Of a DNA stretch of 64,000 nucleotides, positions 11,511 through 54,889 are shown in pieces; positions within the stretch are counted from its first letter, which is position 1; each line of letters opens with the position of its first letter. Origin of the DNA: Sulfolobus sp. E5-1-F (GTDB taxonomy: Archaea; Thermoproteota; Thermoprotei_A; Sulfolobales; Sulfolobaceae). The DNA is taken from positions 1,958,001-2,022,000 of the forward strand of contig NZ_CP045687.1 in the NCBI RefSeq assembly GCF_009601705.1. The letters are read 5' to 3'. A model generated the notes under the pieces. It was not told the origin of the DNA and did no database searches. It worked only from the letters and a program-made list of their open reading frames with translations. A program made the position numbers and the translations under genes.

Positions 11511-12577
11511 AAACTGCAGCCCTTTTTGTATCTGAAGAATTTAAGGAAGAGGCAATAGCGTTAGCTGAGGGGGCTGATCACAAGATAGTTAGAATTTACA
11601 AATTACCAAAATCACCTAATGTGAAATTTTATATACAATATGATAAGTTACAACAAATCAAAAACGATGAGGAAATTTCTACGTTAATTATATTCGAAGA
11701 ACTTAAGCCTAGACACTTTATAAATCTGAGAAAAGAACTAAAAGGAAAAGAGGTCCTAGACAAAATACTCCTTCTTTTGGATATATTTGCACTACATGCA
11801 GGGTCAAAAGAAGCAAAAATGCAAATAGAACTGGCCAGGCTTAAGTATGAACTACCCATAATAAAAGAAACGTATACTAAATCAAAAATAGGTGAACAAC
11901 AAGGTCCTTTAGGAGCTGGAACATATGGAGTAGAATCTATAATAAAATTTTACAAAAGAAGAATCAATAAACTTATGAAAGAATTGGAAAATATAAAAGT
12001 TTTTAAAGAAAAATCCATAGAATCTAATAAGAGAAATAATATTCCTTCTGTTGGAATCGTAGGGTACACAAATTCTGGAAAGACCTCGTTATTTAACTCA
12101 TTAACTGGGTTAACACAGAAAGTTGATACAAAACTATTCACTACAATGTCACCTAAAAGATATGGGATCTCAATAAATAATAGAAAGATTATGCTAGTTG
12201 ACACTGTAGGATTCATTAGAGGAATTCCTCCACAAATTGTAGATGCTTTCTTCGTCACTCTGTCAGAAGCTAAATACTCTGATGCATTAATTCTTGTAAT
12301 AGACTCTACATTCTCAGAAAATCTATTAATTGAGACTTTGCAATCCTCTTTCGAAATTTTAAGAGAAATAGGAGTTTCGGGTAAGCCTATAATAGTAGCC
12401 CTTAATAAAATTGACAGAATTAATGGCGATTTATATAAAAAGCTTGACTTAATAGAGAAGCTATCAAAAGAGTTGTACTCTCCTATATTCGATGTCATAC
12501 CTATATCAGCTTTAAAGAGAACAAATCTTGAATTATTAAGGGATAGGATATACCAGCTAGTCACACAGTTGAGTTAA
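11507..12577 (+). CDS. hflX: GTPase HflX
   Basis: Ribosome-associated GTPase. A GTG start overlaps the aMBF1 stop. Residues 1-170 are the HflX nucleotide-binding N-terminal domain ending in a glycine-rich segment (GEQQGPLGAGTYGVES) and a coiled coil; the G domain follows with G1 GYTNSGKTSL, G3 DTVGF and G4 NKID. The 356 residues match the crystallised S. solfataricus HflX. The next gene, trm56, begins only a few bases after the stop. Confidence 0.95.
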   Translation: MKTAALFVSEEFKEEAIALAEGADHKIVRIYKLPKSPNVKFYIQYDKLQQIKNDEEISTLIIFEELKPRHFINLRKELKGKEVLDKILLLLDIFALHAGSKEAKMQIELARLKYELPIIKETYTKSKIGEQQGPLGAGTYGVESIIKFYKRRINKLMKELENIKVFKEKSIESNKRNNIPSVGIVGYTNSGKTSLFNSLTGLTQKVDTKLFTTMSPKRYGISINNRKIMLVDTVGFIRGIPPQIVDAFFVTLSEAKYSDALILVIDSTFSENLLIETLQSSFEILREIGVSGKPIIVALNKIDRINGDLYKKLDLIEKLSKELYSPIFDVIPISALKRTNLELLRDRIYQLVTQLS

Positions 12578-12582
12578 AAGAT

Positions 12583-13110
12583 ATATATGTTTTAAGGCTA
12601 GGCCATAGACCAGCTAGAGATAAAAGAGTGACAACACATGTAATTTTGGTAGCAAGAGCCTTTGGCGCTAAAGGTGTGTATATCGAAGGTAAAGATGAAA
12701 AAGTGATAAAATCTGTCTTCAAAGTTGTAAATAGTTGGGGTGGATCTTCGTATTTTTTTGTAAAAGAAATTGAAAATGGAAAGAATATAGTAAATGAATG
12801 GAAAGAAAAAGGAGGCACAGTAATACACTTAACGATGTATGGAATCAATATTAATGATCTTCAAGATAATCTTGAGAAAATAAAGTATCCTCTATTAATA
12901 ATTGTAGGATCAGAAAAAGTTGAAGGTTGGTATTATCGTAATGTAGATTACAATATAGCAATAGGGAATCAGCCACATTCTGAAGTAGCAGCACTAGCAA
13001 TCTTTCTAGACAGAATTTATAAGGGACGAGAGCTATATATGGAATTTGGAGATTCAAAAATAAAGATATTACCTCAGAATGCTGGCAAGAAGGTGATAAG
13101 AAATGGTTAA
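12583..13110 (+). CDS. tRNA (cytidine-56-2'-O)-methyltransferase aTrm56, with apparent ATA start
   Basis: SPOUT methyltransferase of the T-loop C56 of tRNAs. Conserved segments: [19 protein letters not shown] at the N-terminus, then [20 protein letters not shown] and [17 protein letters not shown]. The first usual start codon in frame is GTG at 12628, but this would delete the conserved LRLGHR motif. The frame is open back to 12547 and contains no ATG, GTG or TTG in that part; ATA at 12583 fits the expected N-terminus, one residue before YVLRLGH. hflX ends at 12577. It overlaps tfe by 8 bp. The product is clear; the start is an inference. Confidence 0.85.
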
Positions 13111-53676: not shown

Positions 53677-53994
53677 GTGTCAGAACAACAAGTTTCATTT
53701 GAAGGAGAGTTGAAAACTCTTTTAAAGACTGGTAAAGTTGTTTTTGGTGCTAAGAGAGCTATAAAATATATAAAATTAAGTAAAGTGAAGATGGTAATTA
53801 TCGCATCAACATTGAGGGGAGACCTTAAGCAAGATATATTGTATTATGCTAAGTTATCTAACGTGCCCGTATATGAATATAAAGGTAGCGGTTGGGATCT
53901 TGGGACACTATGTGGTAAACCATTTATGATTTCTACAATAAGCATTGTTGATGAAGGAGATTCTAAAATTTTGGACATTATAAAGGAGAGGTGA
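53677..53994 (+). CDS. rpl30e: Ribosomal protein L30e
   Basis: 105 residues of the L7Ae-related L30e family: LKTGKVVFGAKRAIKYIKLS, KMVIIASTLRGDLKQDILYYA, and VPVYEYKGSGWDLGTLCGKPF. GTG start six bases after rpoA2. Its last codons carry the strong ribosome-binding site of nusA (GGAGAGGTGA). Confidence 0.95.
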   Translation: MSEQQVSFEGELKTLLKTGKVVFGAKRAIKYIKLSKVKMVIIASTLRGDLKQDILYYAKLSNVPVYEYKGSGWDLGTLCGKPFMISTISIVDEGDSKILDIIKER

Positions 53995-54000
53995 TTTTTT

Positions 54001-54432
54001 CTGCCAGAAATTAGATTAACTCCAGAGGAAATACGTTATATTTCTCTATTTCAAGAAGTAACAAGAGCTAACGTAAGGGATTGTATAATCGATAATGAAA
54101 ATAATAGGATAATATTTCTAGTGGATTCAAAAGATATGGGAGTTGCAATAGGTAAAAATGGTATTAATGTTAAGAGGTTAAGGAAAATCATAGGTAAAGA
54201 TATAGAATTAGTAGCCTATAGCGATAATTTAGAAGAATTAGTAAAAAATCTGATGAGTCCAGCTAGAGTTAGAGGCGTAAAAGTAGTAAATACTAGCTCT
54301 AAAAAGTCAGTATATATTACTATAGATCCTCAAGATAAAGGATTAGCGATAGGTAAGAATGGAAGGAATGTAGCAAGAGCAAAGCTAATTTTAAAGAGGT
54401 ATATGGATATTGATAATGTAGTAATAGTTTAA
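54001..54432 (+). CDS. nusA: Transcription factor NusA (KH-domain protein), apparent CTG start
   Basis: Short archaeal NusA with two KH domains and no S1 domain: [19 protein letters not shown] and [19 protein letters not shown]. The conserved N-terminus [20 protein letters not shown] starts directly after a CTG at 54001. The frame is closed by the L30e stop at 53992 and the only codons between are TTT TTT. GGAGAGGTGA at 53984-53994 is spaced six bases from this CTG. The first usual start, GTG 54121, would cut 40 conserved residues. 143 residues. Confidence 0.9.
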
Positions 54433-54445
54433 GGGGTTGGAAAAA

Positions 54446-54889
54446 GTGAGTAAGAGTAAATCACCTAAAGGAATATATGCGGCTAGAAAATTAAGACTAA
54501 AAAGGTTAAAATTCAGAAGGAGTCAAAGAAAGTATAAGAACAAGATACTAAAGTTGAAGGAAAAATACGATCCTTTAGGAGGAGCACCAATGGCAAGAGG
54601 GATAGTTTTAGAGAAAGTAGGAATAGAATCAAGGCAACCAAATTCAGCGGTCAGAAAATGCGTAAGAGTTCAGTTAGTGAGAAATGGCAGAGTTGTTACT
54701 GCATTCGTACCTGGGGATGGTGGTGTTAATTTCATTGACGAACATGATGAAGTCATAATTACCGGAATTGGAGGTACGTTAGGTAGATCGATGGGTGACT
54801 TACCTGGAGTGAGATACAAAGTTATAATGGTAAATGGTGTGTCATTAGATGCGTTATATAAAGGCAAGAAGCAAAAGCCAGTTAGATAA
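54446..54889 (+). CDS. rps12: Ribosomal protein S12
   Basis: Decoding-site protein, 147 residues: [20 protein letters not shown] at the start, [20 protein letters not shown] with the streptomycin-site PNSA motif, and [17 protein letters not shown] at 54446 preferred over TTG at 54437 by comparison with other archaeal S12. Follows nusA by 13 bases. Confidence 0.96.

Follow-up and report, generated by a model that had tools for sequence, protein, structure and literature searches.

A rare CTG start codon almost certainly begins the nusA gene of a hot-acid archaeon

Among the closest described systems is the gene pair of Condo et al. 1999, in which the junction of the two genes reads UGAGUG, the Shine-Dalgarno (SD) motif is located inside the upstream gene and translation of the two genes is described as uncoupled (PMC6728339). 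According to a review, the SD motif of this pair is essential and the second cistron is independent (PMC7531240). 'ORF 104' has been used in cell-free work with S. solfataricus, for which a reverse primer is given in PMC6388310. For the Haloferax gene HVO_1510 a CTG start has been suggested, with an out-of-frame ATG combined with slippage as an equal alternative (PMC8305020). Literature searches turned up little on initiation at CUG in Sulfolobus or archaea. The reverse primer for ORF 104 is complementary to the end of rpl30e plus the nusA leader in the relatives L025 and L027, through which the construct primer can be matched to rpl30e, and the UGAGUG of the Condo 1999 pair is the exact arrangement of these two loci. 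The second cistron of that model mRNA was probably nusA in a version with a GTG start, as judged from the matching sequences.

The window analysed here, a stretch of 64,000 nucleotides, belongs to a genome of 2.54 Mb in a single contig, whose relatives include Metallosphaera and Aramenus and thereby place it in the Sulfolobaceae. In this window, rpl30e and nusA form a pair, with nusA in second place, within a cluster of RNA polymerase and ribosomal protein genes. The first gene, rpl30e (53677..53994, + strand; GTG start, TGA stop), encodes ribosomal protein L30e (NF002172, 149.5 bits with a cut-off of 77), which is the 'ORF 104' of the literature. It is followed by nusA (54001..54432, +), encoding an archaeal NusA-like protein of 143 residues with two KH domains, and by rps12 (54446..54889, +; GTG start; NF003254, 261.8 bits), the next gene of the cluster, which served as a control gene. 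The NusA product matches TIGR01952 with 181 bits over residues 3-143 (cut-off 74.35), has KH-type Pfam matches in its N- and C-terminal halves, and is structurally closest to the archaeal NusA 2cxc/2cy1 among solved structures, aligned over residues 4-142. A nusA gene was present in every genome of a class-wide search; start codons were read within the order only.

An earlier note on this DNA had proposed that nusA starts with a CTG six bases behind a strong SD motif, and all coordinates of this proposal hold. The motif GGAGAGGTGA (53985..53994, +) lies within the 3' end of rpl30e and is followed by a spacer of 6 nt, TTTTTT (53995..54000, +), and by the CTG (54001..54003, +). Pairing with the anti-SD extends across the 8 bases of GAGGTGAT (53988-53995), with a duplex energy of -13.9 kcal/mol and a spacing of 6 nt. 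A start further upstream is excluded, as the note had also stated, by the TGA at 53992-53994, which is the rpl30e stop and an in-frame stop of nusA at once. Only TTT TTT CTG separates this TGA from CCA GAA ATT, with which the conserved PEIRLTPEE begins directly after the CTG, again in agreement with the note, and no ATG, GTG or TTG is found between the in-frame stop at 53992 and the conserved nusA coding sequence. The first such codon after 54001 is the GTG at 54121..54123 (+), 40 codons downstream, and its use would indeed remove the 40 residues that had been predicted to be lost.

The same position was inspected in other Sulfolobales genomes, a check that the earlier note had suggested. In all of the 30 closest genomes, the codon aligned with 54001 is of the form xTG (8 CTG, 12 TTG, 7 GTG, 3 ATG). 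Beyond these, 39 genomes from the order could be aligned unambiguously, the remainder with an extra or altered N-terminus being left out; here, a manual count gave 10 ATG, 4 GTG, 15 TTG, 8 CTG and 2 ATT. Of the 69 genomes that could be aligned in the order, 67 thus have xTG at the nusA start position and the two exceptions have ATT, and CTG recurs. Leucine codons in this genome are predominantly TTA (45%), CTA (19%) and CTT (14%), and 83% of them do not end in TG; since TTG and CTG together account for only 17%, an internal leucine should have shown TTA, CTA or CTT at this position. A stop immediately precedes the CTG in L232 (TAG) and in L028 (TGA), and in L226 and L227 a stop lies two codons upstream of it, with one codon between. 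Four more members of the genus carry the identical CTG, which rules out a sequencing error at 54001. Within this genus, members with TTG and members with CTG differ by two bases between the T6 run and the G (TTTTTTG versus TTTTTTCTG), so that the two codons were interchanged here by an insertion or deletion, after which an xTG still stood in place.

Two other groups of genomes show codons outside the xTG pattern. At L233 and L234, which belong to the same genomes as L087 and L205 and to one genus, nusA apparently starts with ATT in the context GGAGGTGAGTAAGCA ATT CCC GAA, with an in-frame TAA two codons ahead. In family f4, TCG is found at the position where relatives have xTG (L083 and L084 of genus g23, and L208); the arrangement is GGTGA-N6-TCG-CCN-GAG, shortly preceded by stops in the same frame, and the vicinity contains no canonical start.

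Coding constraint begins directly behind the CTG. Pairwise comparisons of codons 2-41 between CTG genomes of the window's genus gave 11/0, 13/1, 17/3, 17/2 and 17/3 synonymous/amino-acid differences. Such near-exclusive synonymous change implies that the 40 residues upstream of GTG 54121 are translated, and points to codons 2-41 evolving as coding sequence under strong purifying selection in the CTG genomes. The xTG column, the constraint from codon 2 onwards, the upstream stops in several CTG lineages and the strong SD motif all support the start that the earlier note had read, and it is almost certain that nusA of this hot-acid archaeon has CTG, a rare start codon, as its first codon.

The best account, and a highly probable one, is direct initiation on the CUG at 54001, placed by the SD motif and carried out with initiator Met-tRNA. 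In this process, GAGGTGAT at the end of rpl30e would position the 30S subunit, the initiator Met-tRNA would pair with the last two bases of the CUG, and the product would be a protein of 143 residues with the N-terminus Met-Pro-Glu-Ile. The ordinary initiator tRNA would thereby decode the CUG as methionine, initiation on nusA would probably be independent of rpl30e translation, and the weak codon may be tolerated because the SD motif is strong. Mean SD pairing is -13.0 kcal/mol where nusA starts with CTG, compared to -10.8 for GTG, -9.9 for TTG and -8.8 for ATG; as these means come from few independent lineages, a stronger SD motif at CTG starts is suggestive only. Points that speak against initiation on CUG are that bacterial initiation complexes are less stable on CUG than on AUG, GUG or UUG (PMC11497404) and that the experimentally studied gene pair had GUG and not CUG. 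The six-T run between SD motif and start (53995-54000) is kept in those members of the genus that have CTG. In archaea, oligo-T has been described as a termination signal (PMC2253867), and attenuation ahead of nusA via this run is conceivable.

The CTG start is found in five of the seven genomes of the window's genus, in two genomes of another genus, in one genome whose site is identical to that of Acd1 (L028/L033), and in one genome of family f5, where two genomes have ATT at this position. It is also found without exception in the distant genus g43 of family f2, from which seven genomes were sampled. On a tree of 48 genomes built from rpoA2, L30e, NusA with its first codon removed, and S12, the nusA start codon underwent 12 changes of state, and five changes separate CTG from not-CTG, a count that does not distinguish gain from loss. 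The neighbouring genes rpl30e and rps12 of these genomes start with ATG, GTG or TTG, and CTG was never seen in them, which assigns the CTG trait to nusA. While CUG starts are known elsewhere, this recurrent and gene-specific use of CUG is new here.

With regard to the meaning of this codon, neutral drift has a slightly better than even chance of being correct. According to this explanation, which competes with dose control only, the CTG is a real start that has arisen without regulatory meaning. The first base of the nusA start often changes between ATG, GTG, TTG and CTG, as the 12 changes of state show, and the gene already favours weak starts; this frequent xTG interchange makes drift a likelier default than selection. 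However, drift does not readily account for five CTG changes in nusA with none to CTG in rpl30e or rps12, for the persistence of CTG in g43, where the rps12 start moves among ATG, GTG and TTG, or for the stronger SD motif where CTG occurs. These three observations rather favour a role for the weak codon. It is possible, if rather doubtful, that selection holds nusA across the order at a rare weak start (CTG, or ATT in one genus) combined with a strong SD motif. The role tentatively proposed within this same reading is that NusA would be set below the ribosomal proteins and RNA polymerase of the cluster, by codon-based dose control or by feedback.

Explanations that dispense with the CTG start itself are far weaker. 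Translation might start at a neighbouring codon (TTT 53998), or the mRNA might be altered, for example from C to U to give UUG, and both would agree with the interchange of CTG and TTG in relatives; the TCG at this site in three genomes of another family would become TTG by the same change. The TTT codons, however, are not conserved whereas the xTG is, and we know of no mRNA editing of the C to U kind in these archaea, which leaves this explanation very improbable. A start at GTG 54121, with a protein shorter by 40 residues, is even less credible: as the first canonical codon in frame it would be the choice of a standard gene finder, but it has to be rejected in view of the strong purifying selection on codons 2-41 in CTG genomes, a TIGR01952 match that begins at residue 3, a 2cxc alignment that begins at residue 4, and an excellent SD motif at 53985 that would be left without a start. 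Scarcely any probability remains for readthrough of the rpl30e TGA (TGA TTT TTT CTG) into a NusA fusion with the CTG as an internal leucine, although the rpl30e stop is in the nusA frame in the CTG members of the genus. This frame relation is not conserved (L005 and L007 are two bases shorter from TGA to CCT, and the overlap takes other forms in further relatives), close relatives never depart from xTG at this codon, nusA has a separate SD motif, and rpl30e encodes a small ribosomal protein of fixed length.

Within its own genome, a CTG start such as that of nusA is rare. In a survey of 464 kb with 437 likely genes, consisting of a 400-kb genome sample plus pattern hits, SD matches of at least 6 bases at 5-8 nt were followed by CTG in nusA alone, compared to 20 ATG and 7 TTG. 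The pattern AGGTGA-N4-8-CTG occurs 61 times in the whole genome and its reversed form 33 times; among the fetched sites that were inspected, no convincing gene start other than nusA was found, and the closest other site precedes a 60-codon frame without sign of being a gene. Two further frames of this genome lack canonical codons near their beginning. A frame of 358 codons (L074:2162-3238; ISCFDKIKKAFSNF...) lies directly after AAGGTGA and has no canonical codon for 36 codons; it is possibly another non-canonical start. In a frame of 189 codons on the minus strand (L078:15829-16398), AGGTGA-N6-ACG stands near the beginning and no canonical codon follows for 25 codons, and an ACG or ATT start is possible.

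The earlier note had counted trm56 (12547-13110) as a second non-canonical start, a claim that was borne out only in part, with respect to the missing canonical starts. No canonical start precedes the conserved YVLRLGHR core, and ATG, GTG and TTG are absent from the expected start of trm56 in most of the Sulfolobaceae (loci L176-L204, 29 genomes). A gene of about 360 codons precedes trm56, and in most of these 29 genomes its stop overlaps an NTR codon (TTA, ATA, CTA, GTA, TTG or CTG) located three codons ahead of the trm56 core; this genome has TTAA. Because the overlap fixes the second and third letters of the candidate codon, the NTR pattern is no proof of a start. From its sequence, trm56 may plausibly provide a second non-canonical start in this genome, and possible routes are a restart on NUR codons, an AUH start or a frameshift; a brief inspection by eye revealed no slippery site for the latter.

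As predicted from sequence, nusA would show CUG initiation cleanly and under natural conditions in a core gene of an archaeon, and it is probably located in the very gene pair with which internal initiation dependent on the SD motif was established in Sulfolobus. How archaeal initiation factors discriminate between start codons thereby becomes testable in a natural context. Gene finders limited to ATG, GTG and TTG would shorten or lose nusA in several lineages.

Among known systems, bacterial infC has an AUU start, and this codon serves IF3 feedback. Like the infC AUU, the nusA CTG is a rare start that is retained in a single expression-machinery gene, but archaeal NusA, unlike IF3, is not an initiation factor. 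HVO_1510 of Haloferax resembles nusA in being an archaeal gene without a canonical start at its conserved N-terminus in several relatives; no recurrent xTG column has been described for it, whereas the nusA codon is fixed by SD motif, stops and relatives (PMC8305020). In the bacterial CUG complexes, the initiator tRNA pairs with the second and third positions of the codon, as proposed here, and the frame is normal, but this system is based on E. coli ribosomes and includes a variant initiator tRNA, and neither tRNA initiates efficiently on CUG (PMC11497404). The Condo 1999 model mRNA shares with the present locus the same placement of the SD motif in the upstream gene and probably the gene pair itself. 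It differs in the junction, where its stop and GUG start are adjacent as UGAGUG, whereas here six T and a CTG follow the stop.
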